IMG/VR virus record: IMGVR_UViG_3300021142_000070
Location: 1 to 41,534 of that record
Length of the DNA: 41,534 nt
Direction: 5' to 3' (one strand)
Source: a virus
The notes beneath the pieces are model-generated. The model made no database searches, was not told the DNA's origin, and was given only the letters and a program-made list of their open reading frames with translations. The translations under genes and the position numbers were made by a program. Shown here piece after piece: positions 10,118-39,200 of this stretch. Every line of letters starts with the position of its first letter. Position 1 is the first letter of the stretch.

Positions 10118-10509
10118 TTTCTCGAAATACCCTAACTAAGATTTTTTTAGAACAATGGGGTAAAAGTGCAGACGAAGCAAATCTCGAAATGTACAATCGT
10201 ACTTGGTGGCAATCAAATAGATCTGGTAAACAATCATTTCGATTAAGTGATACAGGATACATGTTCTTAGTGCAAGAACTGTCGTTAAGAGAATACGAAA
10301 TTCCCTTTACTGAACCAATTGAGCTCAGTCCCCAAACTATTATATTTTTGGAAAGATATTTAGACACTCCATATTATCTTACCAATCAAAGCATTACTGT
10401 GTTTACTGAACGCAAGAGTTTTGAGCTAATGTTGTTTTCAGACGACATTAGAAAATTTGGCTTAATTAAAGCCATAAATGAGCGAGAAAAAGATCTAGAT
10501 TCGCATTGA
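10114..10509 (+). CDS. conserved T4-like phage protein, function unknown
   Basis: A 131-residue protein coupled by ATGA. Conserved-looking blocks are LEQWGKSADEANLEMYNRTW (12-31), then FRLSDTGYMFLVQELSL, PQTIIFLERYLDTPYYL and KSFELMLFSDDIRKFGLIKA. The spacing of Trp, Tyr and Phe is regular, which suggests a compact helical domain. I remember proteins of this pattern from T4-like phages of cyanobacteria and other marine bacteria, with no proven role. It is the last gene before a strong sigma70-type promoter at 10506-10534. Confidence 0.7.
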   Translation: MISRNTLTKIFLEQWGKSADEANLEMYNRTWWQSNRSGKQSFRLSDTGYMFLVQELSLREYEIPFTEPIELSPQTIIFLERYLDTPYYLTNQSITVFTERKSFELMLFSDDIRKFGLIKAINEREKDLDSH

Positions 10510-10534
10510 CTTTCCTACAAGTTGACTGTATAAT
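10506..10534 (+). promoter_or_regulatory. sigma70-type promoter for the MoxR-like gene
   Basis: TTGACT (10506-10511) and a perfect TATAAT (10529-10534) are 17 bases apart. The -35 overlaps the stop of the upstream gene. A second TTGACT lies in the spacer at 10522-10527. The start codon is 53 bases after the -10, leaving a leader with inverted repeats. Confidence 0.7.
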
Positions 10535-10587: not shown

Positions 10588-11679
10588 ATGGCAAAAGAAC
10601 TAGTAACCCGTACAGTGGGTCCAAAAGGCGCTAAAAAGTCTTTGCGTAAGGCTTTTAATAGTAAGCGTCCAATCTTTATCTGGGGCCCTCCAGGTATTGG
10701 TAAATCAGATATCATTAAACAGCTAGGTGAAGAACTTGGTGCTCACGTAATTGATGTACGTTTGAGCCTTTGGGAACCTACTGACATTAAAGGTATTCCA
10801 TATTTTGATAGCAATGAAGGTACCATGCGTTGGGCACCTCCTTCAGAATTGCCAAGCAAAGACTTTGCATCAAAGCATAAACAAATTATCCTTTTTATGG
10901 ACGAGCTTAATTCAGCGGCTCCTAGCGTACAAGCGGCGGCTTATCAGTTAGTTCTTAATCGTAAAGTTGGCACATACGAGTTGCCAGATAACGTAGTAAT
11001 GGTTGCCGCTGGTAACCGTGAAACTGACAAGGGTGTTAGCTATCGTATGCCTAGCCCGTTGGCTAATCGTTTTGTTCACTTGGAAATGACAGTAGACTGG
11101 GATGACTATTTTGAGTGGGCTGTTGATAACGGTGTTCACCCAGATGTTATTGGTTTCCTAACATTTAGTAAAAAGGACTTATACGATTTTGATCCAAAAT
11201 CTAGCTCACGCTCTTTTGCTACACCACGCTCTTGGTCTTTTGTAAGCGAATTGCTTACAGATGACGATGTTGATACTGAAACACTAACAGATTTGGTGTC
11301 AGGTTCAGTTGGTGAAGGACTTGCTATTAAGTTTATGGCTCACCGTAAACATGCGTCCAAAATGCCTAACCCATCAGATATTTTGAGTGGTAAGGTTAAA
11401 AAGATGGACTCAAAAGAGATTTCAGCTATGTATTCTTTGACTGTGTCATTGTGCTACGAGCTTAAAGACTCTTGTGAAAAGAAAGCCAAAAACTGGAACG
11501 ATCAAGTTAACTACTTCTTCCAATTTATCATGGACAATTTTGAAACAGAATTGGTTATTATGGGTACTAAAATTGCTCTTAGCCAATACAAGTTGCCGTT
11601 GGATCCAGATGAAATTAAGTGCTTTGACGACTTCCACGCTAAGTTTGGTAAGTACATTAGCGCCGCAACTGAGAAGTAA
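10588..11679 (+). CDS. MoxR-type AAA+ ATPase
   Basis: A 363-residue AAA+ protein. Walker A is GPPGIGKS (33-40), Walker B ILFMDE (101-106), sensor 1 is the Asn in AAGNRETDKG (140-149), and an arginine-finger candidate follows in LANRF (158-162). The SLWEPTDIKGIPYF insert (60-73) is typical of the MoxR group. These ATPases form hexamers that remodel partner complexes and usually work with a VWA-domain protein encoded next door, as here. It is cytoplasmic. The ribosome site is TAGGA. It has its own strong promoter and is followed by a second promoter, so ATPase and VWA protein can be expressed separately. Family confidence is high; the target is unknown. Confidence 0.9.
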   Translation: MAKELVTRTVGPKGAKKSLRKAFNSKRPIFIWGPPGIGKSDIIKQLGEELGAHVIDVRLSLWEPTDIKGIPYFDSNEGTMRWAPPSELPSKDFASKHKQIILFMDELNSAAPSVQAAAYQLVLNRKVGTYELPDNVVMVAAGNRETDKGVSYRMPSPLANRFVHLEMTVDWDDYFEWAVDNGVHPDVIGFLTFSKKDLYDFDPKSSSRSFATPRSWSFVSELLTDDDVDTETLTDLVSGSVGEGLAIKFMAHRKHASKMPNPSDILSGKVKKMDSKEISAMYSLTVSLCYELKDSCEKKAKNWNDQVNYFFQFIMDNFETELVIMGTKIALSQYKLPLDPDEIKCFDDFHAKFGKYISAATEK

Positions 11680-11695
11680 TTTGGCTTAGTACCAA

Positions 11696-11724
11696 TTGAC
11701 ACCTCCTACGGGAGGTGTTATAAT
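11696..11724 (+). promoter_or_regulatory. consensus sigma70 promoter for the VWA gene
   Basis: Perfect TTGACA (11696-11701) and perfect TATAAT (11719-11724) with the optimal 17-base spacer. It is the strongest match in the window. The spacer is almost filled by the hairpin at 11699-11718. AAAAGGAG and the ATG at 11750 follow. Confidence 0.85.
11699..11718 (+). repeat. perfect 8-bp hairpin with UACG tetraloop inside the promoter spacer
   Basis: ACACCTCC (11699-11706), loop TACG, GGAGGTGT (11711-11718). As RNA from the upstream ATPase transcript this gives a very stable C(UACG)G (UNCG-type) loop; as DNA it is a candidate operator lying exactly between -35 and -10. No T tract follows, so it is not a classical terminator. 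Confidence 0.65.
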
Positions 11725-11749
11725 ATATACATACGTAAAAGGAGCAAGT

Positions 11750-12934
11750 ATGTCACATTCAGATCCAGTCATAGACAAAATTATTGTAGCTCGTGTAGGT
11801 TTGCTTTTAAAGCATCCGTTTTTTGGTAACATGGCTACACGTTTGAAGATTCAGGAAGCAGAAAAATGGTTGCCAACTGCCGCAACAGATGGTCGTAACA
11901 TTTATTTCTGTCGTGAGTTTTTTGAAAAACTTACCGTTAAACAGGTAGAGTTTGTCATTGCACACGAAATCTTACACAATGTTTTTGATCACATGACACG
12001 TCGTGAAGGACGCGATCCTCAAATCTTTAACATTGCCTGTGACTATACTGTTAACGGACAATTAGTGCGAGACCATATCGGTGATCATCAAATCCCAGAT
12101 ATTAAAATCTTTCATGATCCTAAATATTACGGCATGAGTGCTGAAGAAATTTATGATAAGATTTATGACGATATGGACGAGGAACAATTGAATCAACTTG
12201 GTCAATTACTCGACGAGCATATTGATTGGGAAAAAGAAGGTAAAGATGGTCGCCCAACTTTAAGTAAAGAACAACTAAAAGAAATTCGTGACGAAATTCG
12301 CGAAGCAACAATTCAAGCGGCACAAGCCGCAGGTGCTGGTAATACTCCTGCAAGCGTACAACGTATGATTAAGGAACTTACAGAACCTAAAATGAATTGG
12401 CGTGATATTTTGCGTCAGCAAATCCAAAGTGTTATTAAAAATGATTACACATTTATGCGTCCTAATCGTAAGGGTTGGCACATGAATGCAGTATTGCCAG
12501 GTACACAATTTAAAGAAACAATTGATATTTGCGTAGCAATTGATATGTCAGGATCAATTGGTGATGAGCAAGCAAAAGACTTCTTGTCAGAGATTAAAGG
12601 CATTATGCAAGAATATCAAGACTTTAAAATTAAAGTATGGTGTTTTGATACTAAAGTGTATAACGAGCAAGATTATGATGGTTATACAATGGATGAGTTT
12701 GACGAGTATGAACCAATGGGTGGTGGCGGAACTGAGTTTGATGTCAATTGGGAATACATGAAGGAAAATGACATTGAACCCAAAAAGTTCATTATGTTTA
12801 CAGACGGTTATCCTTGGGGTAGCTGGGGTGATGAAAACTACTGTGATACAGTATTCATCATTCACGGCAACGATAAGATTGTTCCACCATTTGGAGAATA
12901 TGCTTATTACGAATTTGCAAAAGTAGGCGCATAA
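11750..12934 (+). CDS. metallopeptidase-like/VWA domain protein (DUF2201-type), partner of the MoxR ATPase
   Basis: A 394-residue protein in two domains. The N-terminal part carries a zinc-protease-like HEILHNVFDH (72-81); the C-terminal VWA-like domain has a MIDAS metal site made of DMSGS (265-269), a Thr in GGGGTEFD (324-331) and Asp352 in MFTDGYP. A coiled linker (DEEQLNQLGQLLDEHIDWEK, then Ala/Glu-rich) joins them. The architecture matches DUF2201 proteins, which pair with MoxR ATPases as a chaperone-like module that alters or inserts cofactors into target complexes. Whether the HExxH site is active is unknown. The start after AAAAGGAG at 11750 is certain, since anything earlier falls in the promoter. 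It overlaps the next gene (TAATG). Confidence 0.85.
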   Translation: MSHSDPVIDKIIVARVGLLLKHPFFGNMATRLKIQEAEKWLPTAATDGRNIYFCREFFEKLTVKQVEFVIAHEILHNVFDHMTRREGRDPQIFNIACDYTVNGQLVRDHIGDHQIPDIKIFHDPKYYGMSAEEIYDKIYDDMDEEQLNQLGQLLDEHIDWEKEGKDGRPTLSKEQLKEIRDEIREATIQAAQAAGAGNTPASVQRMIKELTEPKMNWRDILRQQIQSVIKNDYTFMRPNRKGWHMNAVLPGTQFKETIDICVAIDMSGSIGDEQAKDFLSEIKGIMQEYQDFKIKVWCFDTKVYNEQDYDGYTMDEFDEYEPMGGGGTEFDVNWEYMKENDIEPKKFIMFTDGYPWGSWGDENYCDTVFIIHGNDKIVPPFGEYAYYEFAKVGA

Positions 12935-15144: not shown

Positions 15145-15772
15145 AATCATTTATCTTAGCAAGTGCCTCCTTATTGGAGGCATTTTTTTCACCATATTCA
15201 CGACCTTGGATAGCACCCATATAAGCATATCCGCCAAATTGCGCATGTTGATTTAACTTACACCAGAAATATAATCTAGCCAAAGACTCTTCATTATTAA
15301 TTACAGCTAATTTACAACATTCTCTAAAAGCACTACGCCAAGTACTAAACTCATCTGTATTAAATGCTGTAATGTTACTTACTGTATCCATGGCTTTAAA
15401 TTTACTGCTAATACTCATAGTCATATCAGTAGTATTGGTATCCATGTTTATAGTCATTTGTTTTGGCAATAATTTTACTCCTCCGTATCCATAACTTAAA
15501 TTATTAATAGGATTAATACTACGCCAAACATGGACTACATCCAGCTCGTCATCTGGAACTTTATAATCAAAATTGAAATCATTTAATATAACTGCATCGC
15601 CATCCACTACCCAGAACATACGAGTAAAACATTTCTTTGCCGCGGCAATGTGTGCTTGATGTATTCCTTTGACACCATCTACACGTTTTGCTCTAGGAAA
15701 ACGTTCTTTTAGGCTAGCAAAATTTTCTTCTGCATCTGGCTCATTATATGAAATAAAAACTATATCGTACAT
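15092..15772 (-). CDS. GT-A-like glycosyltransferase (paralog of upstream gene)
   Basis: A 226-residue protein opening with IVFISYNEPDAEENFASLKE, then AKRVDGVKGIHQAHIAAAKK, and a DxD-type metal site FWVVDGDAVI (54-63, DGD 57-59). A GGVKLLPKQM segment and WRSAFRECCKL follow. This is the usual GT-A order: a nucleotide-sugar pocket, then a DxD that holds Mn/Mg, then an acceptor region. It is paralogous to the 298-residue neighbour, with the same SYNEP/SYDEP, GVKG and GGxKL blocks. Donor and acceptor are unknown. It ends the leftward operon, and its last codons overlap thyX and contain that gene's terminator. It shares TAATG with the gene before it. Confidence 0.8.
   Translation of the reverse strand: MYDIVFISYNEPDAEENFASLKERFPRAKRVDGVKGIHQAHIAAAKKCFTRMFWVVDGDAVILNDFNFDYKVPDDELDVVHVWRSINPINNLSYGYGGVKLLPKQMTINMDTNTTDMTMSISSKFKAMDTVSNITAFNTDEFSTWRSAFRECCKLAVINNEESLARLYFWCKLNQHAQFGGYAYMGAIQGREYGEKNASNKEALAKINDFIWLKDRWLEGKPELLL
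15164..15189 (+). terminator. rho-independent terminator for the thyX transcription unit
   Basis: TGCCTCC (15164-15170), loop TTATT, GGAGGCA (15176-15182), then seven T. It is a textbook intrinsic terminator in the rightward direction. It lies wholly within the coding part of the convergent glycosyltransferase gene, where it encodes the NASNKEA region; read leftward it has no T tract. Confidence 0.9.
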
Positions 15773-16668
15773 TATCGTCTTCTAATTACTCGAGGTGTAT
15801 TTAAGTAGACGGTTTTAAAAAACTTACTACCAGCTGGATCTAAATTGGCAATTTCTAATTCACTATGCTTCATTAAATATTTGCCTAAAAAATTTATATA
15901 TTCTGTTATTTTTTCTGGCTCTGCTTGTTCGTGTGTTGTTTCCCAATGAGTAGTTAACCATTCAAAATCGCGAACGTTTGCATAATCCCAGTCAGTAAAC
16001 ATTGTCATGTAACAGCCTTCTCTAGCACCTAATACACTCCAAATACCGTTTTCAACATCTGCACCTACTGTACACCAAACTAATAATCTATGATAGTTTT
16101 GCCACCATACCTTTTTTAAATCATTAGTTTTCATACCTTGATTTAAACTCATCTTAACACCTTCACGGAATCCGGCACGCCACGCTTGGAAAGGCGTAGC
16201 ATTTGTAAAACTTTCTGAATAGCTATCATTAAATTGATAATATTTGTCGTCGAAACAAAATTCTACACGGCCTTTTGCATCATCAATTGCGGCATTTTCA
16301 TGTGTACGCATATTGTTAACAAACTCTTTAGTCCACAGTTTTAGTCCACCATTGCCATACATAAGTCCATTAACATGAATTTTACCACACCATGAAAATA
16401 CATTTTCACTTGTTAGTCCTAATGCATCTAAGTCAATTTCAACTTCTAAAAATTTAGGATCTACAATATTGTCTGCATCCACTGTAACAAAATACTCAGT
16501 ATCACTTAATGCCGCACAGGCCTTGTGTGCGGCATCACTACCTTTAACTCCATGAACACGTTTTGCCCAAGGCACTTTAGTAAGTAAGTCTGCATAATTT
16601 TTTTCAGCATTTGGTTCATCGTAGCTGAGAAAGATGATGTCTTGTTCAATTATTTTAATTTTTGTCAT
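15772..16668 (-). CDS. GT-A-like glycosyltransferase
   Basis: A 298-residue protein with IIFLSYDEPNAEKNYADLLT (11-30), AKRVHGVKGSDAAHKACAAL, and a DxD site in YFVTVDADNIVD (59-70, DAD 64-66). MYGNGGLKLWTKEF and WRAGFREGVKMSL follow, matching the smaller neighbour step for step. It is likely a cytoplasmic enzyme using a nucleotide sugar with a divalent metal. It is longer than its paralog by a C-terminal helical part (TEYINFLGKYLMKHSEL) that might govern acceptor choice. It overlaps the upstream gene by 14 bases. Confidence 0.8.
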   Translation of the reverse strand: MTKIKIIEQDIIFLSYDEPNAEKNYADLLTKVPWAKRVHGVKGSDAAHKACAALSDTEYFVTVDADNIVDPKFLEVEIDLDALGLTSENVFSWCGKIHVNGLMYGNGGLKLWTKEFVNNMRTHENAAIDDAKGRVEFCFDDKYYQFNDSYSESFTNATPFQAWRAGFREGVKMSLNQGMKTNDLKKVWWQNYHRLLVWCTVGADVENGIWSVLGAREGCYMTMFTDWDYANVRDFEWLTTHWETTHEQAEPEKITEYINFLGKYLMKHSELEIANLDPAGSKFFKTVYLNTPRVIRRR

Positions 16669-27237: not shown

Positions 27238-30200
27238 TTAACTCTTGTAGTCCGTGTACCAAATTCCAAGTTCTGCTCTGATAAAGTTAGCAATAGCGGA
27301 ACTATCATTTAAGATATTAACTGATGGCGCAACTGTTTGATTAACTGTTGTTCCGGATTTGTTACCGTCCCATGCTATTCCTGATCTCTTAACTACTGTT
27401 ACTTGTGTGCCAAGGGACAGCGGATTTGTTAAAGTTATAATCGAAGTTGTTCCGTCGACAATAAAGTCTTCGGCAAAATTTACATCGCCGGCAGGGCTAT
27501 ATGGTGCTTTGTTAATGTTAAACACACTGTATGCTGATTTTCTTAATCGAATATTTTCTACAAAGAAATACCAGTTAGACAAATCATTACCAAACGATGA
27601 TGAACTTGTGTGTGCAGTTGAACATCTATAAGTATATGCGCCCACTGACACAATAGTTCCTACCTTATACGCAGTGTCTGGGGACCATGATACATTATCG
27701 TAACCTCCAACAAACACTTCAATTTGATCAGCGTTTGCTGGCACAAATCCAATACTAATATCTTGCCCACCCGATGTAAACGATGTGTTTGATAATGTAG
27801 CAGTAGTTAGTGTGCCAATTGGTTTACCGGCTTCTGCTAAAGATAATGATGTAGCTAAAGTGATTTGATTAGTACCAACTGACGGATTAACTATGTAATA
27901 AGTTCCAGCAGTTAATCCACCACCACCTGCACCTGTAACTACAAATTTTTGTAATGCAACTAAACCGCTATTATCACTTACTGTTATTATACTGTTAGGC
28001 ACACTGGCTATTAATCCACTTGGTGTACCAATTGTAGTTGTAACAGGAGGTCCTCCAAGCGTTTCAGACAATGTCATCGTAGATGTTCCATTTGTAGCAA
28101 CAACATAATAATTCTTTGGATTAGAATAGTTGTTTATAGTTGCGGCACTAACAGAGTATTGCTGTCCATACATTGAACCCAATGTAGTTGTAACTGCGCT
28201 ACCGTTGTAAGTTGCAGATAATGTAAATTGTGTTGAACCATTAGTAGCAATAATGTAATATCTTTGTTGATTTCCAACATATCCAGTAATTGATCCAGGA
28301 TTCAACGATACATTTAATCCAGTATCTATTACTATACCATCCGCAGGAGTACCAACTGTAGTAACCAAAGGTTGATTATCAAGAGTTGTTAATGTAAATG
28401 TAGATGACCCATTAGTTGCTGATATTTTATATGTTTCTGGAGAAACATAATTTTGAATACTTCCAGATCCTGCCACTAGTTGCCAAGTAACTCCTGTTGG
28501 AACTCCGGAGGTTGTGATCAACGGATCACCGTAATTTGAAACACCGCTAACAGAAATAGCTGTAATAGTGCCATTAGATACTCCAGCAACTGAAATAAGC
28601 AAATCATTAGTTACATTAGTGCCACCTAATGCGCCACCTAAAATTTTCATAGTGTTGCCAACAGCATAGCCTGTACCAGCTGATGCTATCGTAACTTTAT
28701 ATCCTCTATTTGCCGCATACACATTGAACACTGCGCCTGATCCTGTACCAATAATATTAGTAGCAGAAACTGCTGTAAATGTTGTAGGTGATGTAATTAA
28801 GGTGAAATTGCTATGTCCATCAGTTGCACTAATAGTATAAGTTGTACCACTTGTGTACCCTAAGATTCCGCCACCACCGCCAAATGTTCCAGTAACAGTT
28901 ACAGTTTGTCCCACTTGTAATAATGTATTTGAATATGTACATTGGAACAATCCACTTGTGTTGTTAATGGTAACTCCAGACAAGAATCGAGAAACAGTAA
29001 CTAAGCCTATTAAAGTTACTTGCTGTCCTACTACTAATGGCACTGGACTTGAAGAACAACTAAATTGACCTGATGTTCCTGTAATTGCTAGACCAATAAT
29101 TGGAGCATTAGCCGTTGAATTGTTAATAATTACAGATTGTCCAGATGCTAATGTAACAGTTGTTGGCAAACAACTAAATTGTCCATTAGTGCCTAAAGAA
29201 ACTACACCATTGAGTGTACTGTGTACAGGTTGACCACTTATAGTAATCACTTGACCTACATAATATTGTCCAGTCGATACAGATAGTTGTCCAGATGTAG
29301 TTGTTATACCAAAGTTGGCAATTGGTTCTGCAACGCTTGATGTTGTAGACAATACTGTTCCAGTTGTTCGCGGAACTCCTTGTCCTGACGATTTAACTGT
29401 TTCAGTTACTGTAGTATCGGTGTAAGGAATATATTCACTTGCACCAATTCCTTGTACGTATGATCCAGATTTATTTAAATTGTAAACTCCTGTTCCTAAT
29501 GTACCTCGACGTAATTGACTTAAAACATTTCCGTTAACATTAAAATATTCAATGCGCTCGCCACGTATTTCAATTACACCCGGTCTGTTTGCGGCTGCAT
29601 TTGGTTGATCAAGTTGACTTGCATCATTTACTACAATTTGTGTGTCATTCCATTTTAAATCTTGCACTAGTGTAGTTTGCTTATTTGCATTTAATCGAAT
29701 ATATCTTACTCTGTTTAGCATATCCTTAAACTGCATATATGAAATACCAGCTGAAGGTAAAATGTTGCTACCAAAAGTTATTAACTCTAAAACATCTGAG
29801 CTTCTTAAAGGTTTTGCTAAACGTAAACTTTGTAAATCTTCATTAAGTTTATAATCAGTACCAGAACTTAATAAAGTTTTATTTTTAATTACCCAAACAT
29901 AGTCGGCATTAATTACAGGTCTGTCTAATTGAATTAATCCGCCACCAAGAGCATTGTATTTGAAGAATTCAATTGTTCCAGGTGTTAAAGTAAATGTAGA
30001 TGAATACTGTACTTCTGTGCGTTCTATATCTAAAATATCTTGCAAGTAGTTACTAATTATTTCAACAACATCGCCGTTTGAAGGAACAGATCCTTGCGCA
30101 AATGTAATCTGACTGCTGATTGGATTGTATGTGTAACCTTCATTTGTAATGATACTAACAATTAATGATTTACCTTCGTATTCTGCGTATATGTTTTGGT

Positions 30201-33200
30201 TAATTGTTACTGAAATACCAGCTGGGTCAACAGTATAATCTGATCCAAAAGTTAATGTACTACCTTCTGCATAAACTAAAACATTATCAACTGTTGTAGA
30301 ATACGGAAGTGCCTTACTTGGATCTAATGTATAAGTTAACTGATCATTACCGATAGTAAAATAATTATTAACAGGAGCACTTAATATTTGTTGGTTAACT
30401 CTTACAATCATATTGCTTTCGTTTGGTAAAGTTATTCCAATAGGATATGTTAAAGTATATGTTGATGAGCCTGTTGCGGTAATTCTTTCAGTTTTTGTAG
30501 TTGCAAATGTTTGTTGATTGCCGCTAACAATAATAAAATTAATTAATTTTCCTACAGCAGGTGGTGTTATAAATCTAATTCCAATAGCATTAGTAAATGT
30601 GTATGTACTATCAGTTTTAAATAAATTTGCAGGAGTTGAAATTCCGTCAACATATATTAAACTAGTAACAGGAGTAATCCATGGTGCTCGAGTTATAAAT
30701 TCTGTTGTAACACCGTCACCAACAAAATAATCTAAATCTAAAATATTAGTACCGTTGAATCCAACACTAAAAATTGTTACCAACTGTCCTGTTGAAAGAA
30801 TACTATTTCCAGACGGAGTAAATGTTACTGTTCCGTTTGTATAATCTATTGAGTAGTCGGTTCCGTACGTTTGAATATTATTACCTAATTTTACAATTAA
30901 TGCTCGAGGACTATTAGGAGTTTGCCCAATGCTGTATGTATTAGTAATACCGTCTGTAATCTGTGAGTTTACTTTTATAGCGGCAGAACCTGCTTGTGAT
31001 TTATCATAAACTTTAATAGATAATGCATCAACAACTTGTCCTGGAACAACTTCTTCCGGTGCTGGACTTGAAGTTGGGGTTACAAATCCATCTCCATCAA
31101 CAACTATGTCATCTGCGGCAATACCTGTAGCAGTTGAATAAGTTAAATTTCCGCCATCCATTGATGTATCGTAATTTGCATCAGGGGTTGAAATAGAACC
31201 GTCGCTAGTAGATTCTCTTAAAATAAATTCATCTCCTGGTAATACTGTAAATGTTGCAGGGATTTCAATTACATTAGTTGGAGAGTCATCAATAATTCCT
31301 CCATCAATAATTGATGATTCAACCGTTGATGCTGAACCCCCGTCGTCTACTCCACTATATGATGAAATTGTCAATGTTGCGCCACCAGCGCCACCTTCAA
31401 CTACGTTTGTAATTACACTAACGCCAATAACCGGAGTAGGAATAATAGCATTAGTGTTAATTAATTTCCAATATCCTTGAGCAAAATCTATACTCCATGA
31501 AGAAGCGGCAGTGTGTGCAGTCTTACAAATATAAGAAATACTATTGTAAAGAACAAGATCATTAACTGCATACACAGTGCCAGTAGCCCAGTTTTGTGTG
31601 GCGGACATTCCATAATAAGGATCGTCTAATCTTACTGGTGGTTTTTGTCCAATAATATTAATTGTACTTCCAGAAGCGTATGCTTCTAATAATTGAATAG
31701 TTCCAGATGCATTAATAACTACGTCTGTTGGTTCTACTAAATTTTTAGTAAAGTTTATATTTGTTCCTGGAGTTATTGTTGAATAAAGTACTTGATTTAA
31801 AGTAACAGACGTTGAAGAATTAACTGCTGTCACAGTAGTACCGTATGCAAAAATTGTTCCGTGAGCAGTTGAGGCTGTCACAACATCGCCAACTGCTAAT
31901 CCAGTAGTATCAGACACAGTTAAAACAAATCCGCCTGCTAAGTTAGAGAATGTTATTAATCCGCTCGGAGCAGTATCTGCTACGTTATCAATAGTTAATG
32001 TTGTTGAGTTAACTACATTTACAACTTTTTGTCTTCTAGAAAAACCAGTTCCACTTACAATCATTCCTGGAACAATTCCAGTAGTATCCGATACTACTAA
32101 TGTATAGCCGCTACTAATAAATGTTATACCGTTAACAATTTGACTTGGAACATAAGTTGCGGTAATTGCTGTTGTTTGAGTAACTGTTACAACATTAACG
32201 GATACATCTAATAAAGATAAATCGTAAGCATATTGCAACGAAACTCCGTCGGATACGTAAGAAGTTGTTATCAATCTTGAGAAATAAATGTTGATCGCTG
32301 TTCCATTAGCAGGTGTATATGGCAACGTAAACACGTGAGTATTACCTGTAACTTGTACAGAATAATCTTTAAATGTTGCAGGTCTACTATCCCATGCATC
32401 TGTTAAGTACGGAGCAGAACCCCATCCGCCGGCTACATCAAAACCTAAACCGCTGACTACAACACCGCCGTAATCAACTCCAGTCATTAACTGTCCTAAA
32501 TCTTTTCCTAACTGTCCAGATGCTGGATTATAATAGTATTGAATACGATCGACCGCTGTTAATACTGACGGTGCTTTATTGTATTTGACAACTATTGTTG
32601 ATCCAGTTGCCGGAGCTGAGGCAAACGTAATTTTACCTGTATATTGTGTATATCCAGATGCAGTTGAGCTTACTACTGACAACGCATACAATTCTCTTAA
32701 AACAGGAATACCGTTAACTGTAACACTAGATTCTCCTGCACGAATGTCTGGTGCCCAAGTTAACACATACTGTAGTTTAGAACCAGTACCAGTAAATGAA
32801 TCAACTTGTTGCAAGTTTGCTAGGTAATAAGTTTGGTTAACACGGTCAAAACGCAACTCAGTTGATGTTGAACGTACAACGCTATTTCCAATAATTGCAA
32901 CTGCTTTGGCTGCTACTCCGCCTTTATCTAATCCACCATAAAGCGTTACGCTCGGCGCACTTAGGTATCCGCTACCAGCACGACCGTATGTATCAATGTT
33001 TGTTAATAATATTCTATTAACTACTCCGTTAGTAATAAATGCTTTAGCCGTAGCTGGAACAGAATTTGCACCAGTTGGCTGATCAATAATTACTACTGGA
33101 GCACTAGCATAGCCGCTACCACCACTGACGATTTTAATTTCAATAATGCTAAAACCAACATTGTCTAACCAAAACTTCCAAGGATAATTTTGTATTGTTG

Positions 33201-36200
33201 GATCTACAACACTAATACTGTTGTTAATAAATGTTGTCTCAACTGGTTTAATTTTTGTATTTGAATAATTAGGTTGTAAGTCAAAGTCTGTTACTGCTGA
33301 TTGATTAGTATCAATGCTAGTATATTGACTTACATATTCTCTAATTTTAGTTCTATAAGGTTTAACTTCTGCAACATAATCTTGGAAATTACTTAAATTA
33401 TCAACAGGATAGTTAACTGGTTGGGATAATTGTCCAACATTATGAGTAGCACGGACAAAACTAGTTTTGAACGCCCAGTCAATAAACGGCTGTTCGCTGT
33501 GCGCATATCTTAAACCGTTTAAGAATAAATCTAAATAATTTTGTTTTAGATCGTTTATTAAAATATTATTTTTTATAGTGTTAAGTATAATTCGTAATTC
33601 AGCACTAGCTTGAACGTCAAAGTTTGATGTATTAAAAATGCTAGAGTCGTAACCAATATCAGTTCCTGCAAACTCATACAAGTTAGTATTAAATTGAATT
33701 GTTCCGTCTTGAATTCCTACTACGCGATAGCTTTGTGTCCAGTCTACAGAAACAACTGAAGAGTATCTATACAACAATACCCACTTGTTTGCATTTCCAT
33801 TTAATACTTTAACTAATTGTCCATTACCAATAGTGTTATTTCGTGCTTGATTAAAGAATATATCTTGTGTAGTATTCAAATCAACAAAATTGTTAACAGT
33901 AATATCAGGAGCACTAAACTGACTGAATCCTGTTTCATACCAGTCCATATAAGACCAATATTTTCTAACATCGTAACCTTGTGTTAATACTTTAGAATAT
34001 TGTTTACTAATGGTATTATAAGAATAAATGCTCCATGTGTCAGATGAAGTACTGTCACTGTTTACTAGCACAGAGTAACTACGAACTGAGCATTGTGTAC
34101 CGCTATTATATCCAGTACCGCCATTGATAATAGTTGCACCTGTAATTTCACCTAACGCATTGATTGTTGTACGTACTACTGCACCTTCACCTGATCCAAT
34201 AATAGTAACGTAAGGAGCATAAACATATCCTTTGCCTGAATTAATTACCGTAATTCCAGTAATGCTACCATTAGTAATAATTGGTGTTAGTACCGGTACT
34301 GAGAAATAACCAATACTTGCAAATCCTAATTCTTCATAAGTATCAACAATCTTATCATATAATCCATATATTGGATTAGGGATAGGATCATAAGATTCTA
34401 AAGAACTAATATCTTTCAATTCTGTAGTTTGATATGTGCTTAATGTTGTATTAACACTTTCAATAAATTCTTTTAATGCCTCAATACGGTTCACAAACAT
34501 ACTCTGGCGAGGACGATTTTCAATACCGTAACGTAATTTAATAGGTAAAGTTGGATCTGGCACTGAACGACCGCCTTCGTCAATACCGCATAAACTATCA
34601 AACCATTTTTGTTCAATAACAGCTGGAAGGTTAACAAGTGTATCATTACTGATTAATTTCCATTGGCTGTGAACATTTTGATCTGTTTTATCGATTACCC
34701 AGTATTCAATAGCAAGAATAACTTCAGTACCTTTTAAATATCCAGCGGCATTTACTAAACTAAATGTATCAACTCCTGTAATCGCTAAACATGTATAACC
34801 TTGTGCTCGTGGATTAGCAATTAATAGTGAAACATCATTTGCGGCCATGTTTCTACCGCTAGTTGATGCTGGAACTATTTTTCTATTTTTAACCCAGAAA
34901 TAATATGTATTTCTAAATGTTTTACTAATGTTATCGTATACTTGTGTTACGCTGTAAGCTGAATTACCATATAAACTTGTTCCGCTGATACCGATAGCAA
35001 TTCCTGACGGAGTGTCTGCTAAATTATCCCAATTAGATGGCAATAAGTTAGTTGAAACCCATTCGTAAATATCAACGCTTGCGCCTTCTGCTAGTGTATT
35101 CCAAGCACTGTTTCTATAAGATGGATCATTAAAATTATTTTCTAAGAACTTGGTAGTTCTTAAATCCCACCATAATTGTCCAACAGGTATATCTGCCCAG
35201 AATTCATTTGTATTTAGAACAACACCAGCAGTGCCGTCGCTGTACGAGTAACTTGCTGGATCATAGAATGTTTGATATGTAATTTCTTCTTGTGCAGGTC
35301 CTGGAATCTTTCCTTGTAGAGGATCAACAATATCAAGATATGTTACTAGTTTTCCTAATGTTTGATCATACAAGAATGCTTTTCTAATTTTATTAACATC
35401 AGGTACTACATCTTGCTGTTCATAGATTGACCAAGAATATGTGTCATTCTGTTTTCCATAACTATAAACTTGTCCTGATGCAAGACTTTGATCAGATGCA
35501 TTAGGTGCGCTAACAATTACTTGGTTAGCACCTACTGCAAATCCTGTTCCGTAACCATCGCTAGGAAGATTTTCTGATTCTAAACTTTCACTGAATACCC
35601 AAACATTGTGATATTTGTCATATATATCTACACGCCCACTATTAACTTCTACTGTTAAGAAATTAGTAGAGCTCTTATCAAATGTAGTAGTATCATTATC
35701 AAATGTAGTTGTAATAGTGCTATCGCCATTTTTACTATAAACGACAATAGTAGTATCATCCATAAACGCTATCTTATTACCAAACAAACCGTTTGTTTCA
35801 GGTTGATGATTAACTAAAGTTTGTGACGAAGTGTATGTACCATTGCTATATTGATAAACTGTAACATTACCTTGTTGGCTTACATTACCTGATGTGTCGT
35901 CAGATGCGGCAATGTATGTGCCGTCCGGTGATATTGCAATAGCTTTTCCAAAATATGCATCGCTTCCAGTTAATACTTGTATTTCTTCTAAACCATTACC
36001 AGTATTTTTATAAATGTGAGCAGTGCCAACGGCAGTAATAGCAAGTGTGCTAGCATCTGAACTTATTGATAAATTAGATCCTAATGCATTTGTACCAGTA
36101 CCAACATAATTTTCTGTCCAGTCATATGCCCAACTATTTGTTATAAATTGAAGCATACCTGAAGGTATAACTCCAGTGTCAGGTGTTCCACTTAGTTCTA

Positions 36201-39200
36201 ATGTAGTCTCACTTAACACCGCATCCACTGTTTGTCCGCTAGTAAACCCAACACCGCTAACAATCATTCCAACTCGAATTCCGTTAGTTGATGTAACTGC
36301 TAGTGTACTGTTAATACTGCCTACAGGATTGTATTGTGTTTCAACACGCACTGTACTAGAGTATGATAATTTGTATACTCGACCTGCGCCATTATTATAA
36401 CCCACAGCACCAACATACAAGGTATTGTTACCAAAAATAAGACTAGATCCAAATTGTTCATTTGCGCTTGGCAAAGGACTTATAATAGTATCAACTAAAT
36501 TATAATTGTTATCTAAATCTTTTAAGTAGATGCTAATTACACCTTGATTTGCTAAACTTGAATCAGATCCTTGTACTTGATTTACATCAACATAAGGTAC
36601 TGCATACCAGTAAGTAGTATTAGTTGTTGGAGTGTTAATAGGAACTGCTCGGTATGCTTGATAGTAAGAATAATTATTTGTAGAATTTTGTACAGCCACA
36701 ACACTATTAATAGCGTATGTTGAGCTAGAATTGTAAACGCCTTTATAATTTGTTCTTGCATAGCCAGCATTAGGACTACCAGTTACTAACCATGTTCCAT
36801 CCGCACTTATTGCGGTTACTGTAGCAACTTGATCAGCATTTACTATGCCGTTCTTTGATATAAAAGGCTCTAACAAATGTCCTCTTGCTTCCCATTTAAC
36901 TGAACGACCCACTTTATCAAAAATAGATACCGTGCCTTGACTATTGCTAACTGCTAATATAGACCCTTGTGTGTTAATTGACAAACTAGAACCAAAATTA
37001 AAGTTAGTAGACGGTGTTGCATTTGGAATATTTTGTGTGGCATAAACAGAATTGTATTGCCATACTGCCCACTTTCCGCTACCGTCATCATCTGTCCATA
37101 TTAAAGTTTTAGGTTTTAAATGTGATAACAATAACTTGTCTAATGTATCCATAGAACTAGTGCGTTGAGTAGTTAATACATAAACGACTACTTCACTTGT
37201 ATTTGTAAATGGAGACGGAATTGTTATTGCAGTTGGTGTTACTACTGTAAATGAATTTAAAGAAACACTTGCTACTTTATAAAATCCTTTAATACTTGCT
37301 ACTTGATCTAATCCAATATAATCTCCAGCTTTTAGAACTATTAGATTTTGTGTAGTCAAAGTTAATGTTTTAGTGTCAGTTGAGTAACTTACATTAAGTA
37401 CACGGATTTGCAAATCTGTAAATCTGTAGATATTCCATGTGTTTTCGCTAAATGCAGTCCAAACATATTGACCATTACCTAATAAAGATACATCATAATT
37501 AAGTATATCTGAAATATATCCTAGTTTAAATGTCACATCAATAGGGTTTACATATCCTGCACTACGCAAGACTGGATCAGGATTTTCTAATACAGGGAAT
37601 GGTTGATTATCATACCCTAAAGGTTTAACATAAATTTCATTAGGAGTTAATTGATTAATAACAGTACTAACTTTATTATTTTTTCTAGTAGTTAGATAAT
37701 ATCCTTGAGGATTATTTTTATATTCATTTTGATCAATAACAACTTCAAAATTTTCAAACGCTTTTGCCGCACCATATTGTCCAACACGGATAGCCCACTC
37801 TTCATAGAAAGTTAGACTTTCTGTTCCGTCATTGCTCAATACATTAAACAAATGATTCAATACATTCTGTGTACCTTTATCACGAATCATTCCTTGGAAG
37901 AATTTAAATTCGCTAACTGGGTCTTGAATAATATTGTCTAAGTATTGACGTGTTTGATAACCAATTAAGTGTTGAGCAAACTGCTGTTGCTGAATATTAA
38001 AATTATCAATGTCAAGGCCGTAAAAATCTATAAATTGTGTAGCAGTATTTGTCCAGTTAGGTAATAGCTGTGCAGTTGGTTGATTTTTTAATCTTAACCA
38101 TTCCACAGAGTTAAACACTGACGCACCTGCTATAAATTTATTGGCGCTATAATAATTTCCTTGATAGGAAATAATATCAGCCATGTTATAATCTTGCCAT
38201 GGTTGCCAATTTTGTACTTTAGCACCATCATATATAAATCCAGGAATATCTAATCCGCCGTACCATCCTTCAGTTACATAACCTGAAACTTTAATACGCT
38301 CTCTGCGATATCCGCTTGGTGGATTATATATAACATCGTTGAAAATATCTGTATTGTCTATAATTACTACATGTTCATTTTGTATTAAGTAAAAACTAGC
38401 ACAGTAAATTCCAGCAGTTCCTCGAGGACTATAACTTACAACATTGTTTTCTCTATAACTATCTAACTCACTTGGTTGTAAAGGTGTGCTGTCTACTTTA
38501 AATATTTCGTATTTGTTAAACGGATTACTGATATTATCAACTACTGTTAAGTCAGTTGTAAAAGTAATTTTATTTGCAGACGGACTCAAACTAATTACAC
38601 TACTGCCTACATTGCTTAATCCAGGCAATGCTATCCATTGTGTAGTATCAAATGTATCTAACTCAGGAATATTATACTGAGCACTGTAGTATTCGCCATT
38701 GTATCGAACTATAGTTCCGTAACTATACAGTTGGTTTGGTAACCAATCAGTCCATAGTGTTTGTCCACCGGCCCAATTTTGTGTAGTCCAGAACATAAAT
38801 TCTTTTGCACTAGTTGACCAGTTGGTAACTGCATTTAAATTTCCATTGAAGTCATCAAATACGAATCCTTGGTCAATTAAATATTGTTCATATCCTAATA
38901 AGAAATCTACAACTTCTTGTACAGTAGCAAATTGTGTTCCGTAAGGAGCAACATTTAAAGTATTTTTATTCCATGTGTCTCTAAATATTGCAGTAACTCC
39001 GCCCACTATTGGAAGGCTGGGCAACTGAGTAAACATTGTTTTGTCAAAAGATACGCCTGCTACATTTTTAACAGTTGTTCTATAATATGCATTTCCATAT
39101 TGTACTACTTGCCCAACAATATATTGTTGTCCTTGTGTCCAGGTTGCAACGCTTTCAGAAATTCCGCCTATGTTAATAGCAGTTCCTGATGAAATATAAC

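Follow-up and report, generated by a model that had tools for sequence, protein, structure and literature searches.

Promoter-early stem-loop (PeSL) cassettes are said to have been described in T4-like phages by Arbiol in 2010 and Comeau in 2014, and their stem-loops are reportedly effective terminators. Citing papers describe PeSLs as composite motifs, promoter and terminator in one, by which genes are shuffled (PMC4503421, PMC3950731). In the archaeal virus HGTV-1, a TATA-like box accompanied by an inverted repeat precedes many of the ORFs (PMC3950731). A search of the accessible literature on phage promoters returned nothing direct on hairpins within promoter spacers.

The locus described here resembles a PeSL in that one short cassette between co-directional genes unites a stem-loop with a strong sigma70-like promoter. 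It differs from the PeSL copies in which the terminator comes first: its hairpin occupies the spacer, has bases in common with the -35 and the extended -10, is followed by no U-run and is present as a single copy. The source record is a 41.5-kb virus fragment, which was analyzed over its full 41,534 nucleotides and is called the window below.

The 29-bp element and its neighbors

Direct reading of the sequence places TTGACA-17-TATAAT at 11696-11724 on the plus strand, exact to the base at 12 of 12 positions, as the initial annotation had stated. This is the sole 12/12 match to a sigma70-type promoter in the window. The -35 box TTGACA (11696-11701) and the -10 box TATAAT (11719-11724) are separated by the 17-nt spacer CCTCCTACGGGAGGTGT, and the promoter scan found a TG ahead of the -10 that makes it an extended -10 (TGn). 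From this consensus we infer promoter activity, with transcription expected to start at 11730-11732, about 7 nt past the -10. The second-best promoter of the region, TTGACT-17-TATAAT at 10506-10534, is located shortly before the start of the MoxR gene at 10588 and carries no dyad.

The gene upstream of the element (10588-11679, plus strand) encodes a MoxR-type AAA ATPase of 363 aa with Pfam matches to AAA and AAA_3 above cut-off. Its TAA stop codon ends at 11679, which is 16 nt ahead of the -35 and about 19-20 nt before the start of the stem at 11699. The gene downstream (11750-12934, plus strand) encodes a DUF2201 metallopeptidase/VWA-like protein of 394 aa (Pfam DUF2201_N, 5e-40; DUF2201, 2e-14) and is preceded by the ribosome-binding site AAGGAG at 11739-11744, with a GGAG-type site in the same place in most relatives. 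The TTG at 11696 was rejected as the start of a 412-aa ORF in favor of the ATG at 11750, which is conserved and has a ribosome site. Farther along, the minus strand of the window holds one ORF of 4694 aa (27238-41322), whose sole Pfam match is CBM_5_12 in two stretches and whose giant product may have a structural or adhesive role and include a carbohydrate-binding module.

The perfect 8-bp inverted repeat that had been proposed for 11699-11718, with its C(UACG)G loop, was likewise confirmed to the base. The 5′ arm ACACCTCC (11699-11706) and the 3′ arm GGAGGTGT (11711-11718) enclose the UNCG-type tetraloop TACG (11707-11710), which is closed by a C-G pair. The promoter boxes are part of this structure, with the last ACA of the -35 doubling as the base of the stem and the TGT of the 3′ arm doubling as the extended -10. 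In RNA read through from the ATPase gene, the stem is predicted to reach 10 bp (eight Watson-Crick pairs with a G.U and a U-A at the base; z = -3.5 in an 81-nt context), and the -10 box would begin an A/U-only tail. Folded alone, the 20-mer hairpin gives -14.3 kcal/mol (z = -4.9).

In the window, dyads that reach 8 bp and have loops of 3-8 nt are not rare (shuffle mean 7.0), but those with at least five G/C per arm are, with two present versus 0.2 expected. The other such dyad is a perfect GC-rich repeat of 10 bp, ATGCCGCACA/TGTGCGGCAT, with a 7-nt loop at 16509-16535, within the minus-strand ORF 15772-16668. When three mismatches were allowed, a window-wide repeat search found the element once only. 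Rfam covariance models run against 11600-11800 returned nothing up to E = 1, and no similarity was found between 501 bp of DNA and cultured phages. The arm sequences CACCTCC and GGAGGTG match the 16S 3′ end and a perfect ribosome site, respectively. An anti-Shine-Dalgarno function was ruled out because relatives swap both arms (GGACC/GGTCC, for example).

Covariation of the stem and terminators in the outgroups

Close relatives of the downstream protein are encoded at 80 IMG/VR loci, and the promoter with its hairpin is present at every one of these that has upstream sequence. Over all loci there are 85 distinct upstream regions, 81 from the clade of the window and four from outgroup contigs (L107, L204, L164 and L111) with 48-59% identity in the VWA protein. 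The clade is a jumbo-like group whose nearest cultured phages have at most about 45% identity in this protein. A lack of dyad conservation in related genomes, which the initial annotation had named as grounds for refutation, was not seen: every clade member has the dyad, and all 81 regions keep the promoter and spacer hairpin before the same VWA/metallopeptidase gene. The -35 TTGACA is without any variation in 82/82 aligned relatives with standard spacing, and the -10 in relatives is TATAAT or TATACT. Spacing is that of a sigma70-type promoter, at 17 nt in 80 clade members and 18 nt, with a triloop, in one (L072). The loop conforms to TNCG in 73 of the 80 distinct members with standard spacing, where N can be any of the four bases, and the rest have TTTG, TTAG or CTCG.

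The five inner pairs of the stem vary in concert. Stem types include CCTCC/GGAGG, GGACC/GGTCC, CCACC/GGTGG and CCGCC/GGCGG, as well as GGGCC/GGCCC, GGAGC/GCTCC, GGGTC/GACCC and GGGAC/GTCCC. Among 33 distinct 29-mers, a set that includes two of the outgroups, 95.8% of cells are paired and 51 are changed on both sides versus 18.6 after shuffling. The covariation score is 0.453, compared with 0.124 for shuffled and at most 0.164 for slid arms, and none of 500 shuffles scored as high. The tree of the VWA gene implies at least 31 changes of stem type, a count which assumes that the junction travels with the gene, which recombination could inflate and in which relatives are not independent. Conservation with compensatory change of this kind indicates that the dyad is more than a chance occurrence. 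These alignments support the view that hairpin and promoter share bases and that both are under selection. The suggestion that the upstream ATPase transcript would carry a stable hairpin is supported by the compensatory stem changes and by the fixed TNCG orientation of the loop.

All four outgroup contigs have a separate long hairpin terminator at this junction, followed by a TTGACA promoter that lacks the full dyad. In L107 and L204 the order is a strong hairpin, TTTTT(T) and then TTGACA-17-TATAAT without a dyad; L111 has the same order, and in L164 the promoter that follows the terminator carries a partial TTCG dyad. Canonical terminators also occupy the MoxR-VWA junction in four of the six cultured jumbo phages, namely Munch (where the terminator is annotated), XaC1, Atu_ph07 and Phosso, the last of which has a separate promoter after its terminator. 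None was found at this junction in PA 30-3 and Vibrio 2.275.O. In the clade of the window there is no space for a separate terminator, and the hairpin resides in the spacer. A fusion of terminator and promoter would be the simplest history. Moreover, the apparent replacement of a terminator at the same junction favors a hairpin that ends the upstream transcript over one that stabilizes it.

As in an intrinsic terminator, the hairpin is GC-rich, has a stem of at least 5 bp and follows soon after the stop codon. However, the U-run after the stem is absent, the tail being UUAUAAUAUAUAC, and the element is missing from the terminator list of the scan. A d'Aubenton-Carafa-type score gives +4.8 for the 8-bp stem and +14.3 for the 7-bp stem, and 0.5% of random 96-mers from the window attain +4.7. 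The canonical terminators of relatives score +29 to +35, well above the element in the window, and the version at the nrdA/nrdB junction of L114 has a negative score (-21.6). In view of these modest positive scores, the hairpin may terminate transcription only in part, or its main role may be protection of the 3′ end.

Loop orientation and recurrence at other junctions

Viral contigs were scanned, as a sample and not a census, for TTGACA-N5-xxxx-N5-TGTTATA with varied centers, and sites adjacent to MoxR/VWA genes were set aside. Among the matches listed, full five-pair stems were present at 28 of 64 non-VWA viral sites with a TNCG center. The corresponding counts among the matches listed were 3/95 for viral sites with the reversed CGNA center (Fisher p = 2e-10), 2/127 for viral sites with any center (p = 1e-13) and 2/117 for TNCG centers in bacterial and archaeal genomes (p = 5e-13). 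A fixed TNCG orientation points to a hairpin that functions at the RNA level, since a DNA operator has no cause to orient its loop. On these counts, the hairpin is a sense-oriented, UNCG-type and largely phage feature.

GNRA centers gave 6/115 full stems versus 2/115 for the TYNC reverse-complement control, which is no clear enrichment among the matches listed, and a GNRA-loop version was dropped as a second class despite single good cases. The 345-kb record G002 has a second spacer hairpin promoter (L635:7550 region), ATGACA-ggatggcaacatcctgt-TATAAT, with a GCAA loop of the GNRA type. In a bacterial metagenome-assembled genome (MAG) of the Lachnospiraceae, the site L451:1536 has the full form of the element, TTGACA-CCGCC-TTCG-GGCGG-TGTTATA; it may come from a prophage or from a phage contig inside the MAG.

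The junctions that bear spacer hairpin promoters include nrdA to nrdB (L090, L114 and L193), the position before a gp44-like clamp loader gene (L093, L122 and L168), the position before a gp32-like gene (L116 and L155) and others, and Pfam confirms one example each of these three types. Among the matches listed, a co-directional frame ends at most 25 nt before the -35 at 25/27 dyad sites versus 106/245 dyad-free promoters (p = 5e-7). Placement directly past a co-directional stop codon is what would be expected for a 3′-end hairpin or a terminator. Also among the matches listed, T is slightly enriched downstream of dyad promoters (0.39 versus 0.29). Each jumbo record, including those of 345 kb and 383 kb, has one perfect UNCG copy, and other strong promoters in the same genomes have no dyad. 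Because other good promoters of these long records do without it, the dyad is not part of what makes a promoter.

Readings of the element and its relation to known systems

On comparative evidence, the element is a real and compact boundary between two transcription units. We think it probable that this boundary is a fused one, in which a promoter and a terminator or 3′-end hairpin occupy the same 29 bp. As a strong sigma70-type promoter, TTGACA-17-TGn-TATAAT, these base pairs would drive the VWA/metallopeptidase gene, presumably without a regulator. In the transcript of the MoxR-type ATPase gene, the promoter bases would form a GC-rich UNCG hairpin of 8-10 bp, and the -10 region itself would supply the A/U-only stretch after it, UUAUAAUAUAUA. 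Most likely, polymerases reading in from the ATPase gene would be terminated there, fully or partly, and the ATPase message would keep a protected 3′ end. Fresh holoenzyme could then load on the same DNA, and the new transcript, starting about 7 nt past the -10, would not contain the hairpin.

A bolder version of the fused boundary, which we hold only tentatively, is that it is maximally compressed, such that the -35, extended -10 and -10 double as stem base and terminator tail and 29 bp both end one unit and start the next. UNCG-hairpin promoters would then constitute a distinct class, located at key junctions in many uncultured phages and possibly coupling termination to re-initiation. As a rule, promoters and terminators are distinct and additive elements. 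In this case, selection maintains the sigma70 DNA code and a UNCG RNA stem in exact superposition, in different phages and at junctions unrelated to one another. Should the termination half of the proposal be confirmed, the element would be a tiny natural insulator that explains how units are kept separate in dense phage genomes, and it would provide a searchable signature of unit boundaries in uncultured phages.

Alternatively, the hairpin might serve in protection only. From downstream ends made by Rho or RNases, 3′ exonucleases would degrade the RNA as far as the UNCG hairpin, which would stabilize the MoxR message, and the promoter would simply serve the next unit. A very stable short UNCG hairpin right past a stop codon, lacking a U-run, is what such a role would call for, and PA 30-3 and Vibrio 2.275.O are without a terminator at the junction. 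Nevertheless, we consider protection alone rather unlikely, since the outgroups have true terminators at the same spot, which makes a loss of termination the less simple account. Moreover, the tail is still A/U-only, and the slight excess of T after dyad promoters among the matches listed points the same way.

A role at the level of DNA is less probable still. The initial annotation had placed the palindrome where a repressor could block polymerase, and a dimeric repressor or activator bound between the -35 and -10 could control the promoter from a location well suited to a steric block; in phage RB49, where the arms GGGGATC/GATCCCC recur with loops in both orientations, a DNA-level role would be apt. 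In the clade of the window, however, arms often differ between close relatives while loop and geometry persist, the stem changes at least 31 times on the tree, the loop orientation is fixed, and the single copy in each jumbo genome coexists with other strong promoters that have no dyad. We therefore regard an operator as improbable. Of the dual-role element originally proposed, the sharing of selected bases by an RNA hairpin and the next promoter is supported, and control through a repressor site is not. Even more improbable is a role in recombination or DNA structure, in which the palindrome would be maintained for shuffling, as has been suggested for PeSLs, or would extrude as a cruciform through which supercoiling tunes the promoter. 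PeSLs are reported to be shuffling points in T4-like phages (PMC4503421), but a site that occurs once in each genome, always at the same gene junction, has no intragenomic partner, and the TNCG orientation bias is a property of RNA. Finally, although 8-bp dyads alone are not rare in the window (seven expected), a coincidence of strong promoter and dyad, or a relic of composition, has almost no chance of being correct, given that 81 relatives conserve the element with compensation and that it recurs at junctions unrelated to this one; the covariation already refutes it.

The spacer hairpin has counterparts in cultured phages. In RB49, 12 early-type promoters read TTGAC(A/G)-palindrome-TA(T/C)A(A/C)T, with GC-rich arms and the hairpin within the spacer, which shows that a cultured coliphage can have hairpins embedded there. 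An upstream stop codon lies 0-13 nt before the -35 at 11 of these 12. In contrast to the clade of the window, RB49 has mixed loops (GGT, ACC, GAAA, GCGA and GATAA) that are not UNCG, its arms recur between copies (often GGGGATC/GATCCCC), and the orientation of its loops is free (both GGT and ACC) and not fixed. Phage nt-1 has one candidate spacer hairpin, TTTATA-cgggtttaaacccgtg-TATAAT, and no spacer-embedded hairpin was found in T4, RB43 or Aeh1 under the criteria used. Aeromonas phage Ahp1_CNU-2021, a 218-kb member of the Straboviridae, has one whose first 26 bases exactly match a common form of the clade, between hypothetical genes at 149285-149313 (L557:3001-3026), with TATTGT as the -10, and BLAST located it at 12 places in the record. 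In Vibrio phages 1.170.O and 1.026.O only part of the hairpin was matched, and these candidates were set aside when an embedded promoter was not confirmed.

The canonical UUCG-loop intrinsic terminators of T4-like phages likewise have a GC-rich stem with a UNCG tetraloop just past a stop codon, whereas in the window the place of the poly-U tail is taken by the -10 box that belongs to the next promoter. The motif of HGTV-1 similarly joins a promoter element with an inverted repeat, but its promoter is archaeal, its copies are many and its function is only proposed. In the terminator-first copies of the PeSL (nine in RB49 and 12 in Aeh1), the stem-loop precedes the -35 and mostly carries a U-run of its own, and PeSLs occur in many copies that are dense in shuffling regions, unlike the element in the window. 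Nevertheless, as far as PeSLs are described in citing papers, the element would work like one, and many of the Aeh1 and RB49 copies carry the C(UUCG)G version of its loop.
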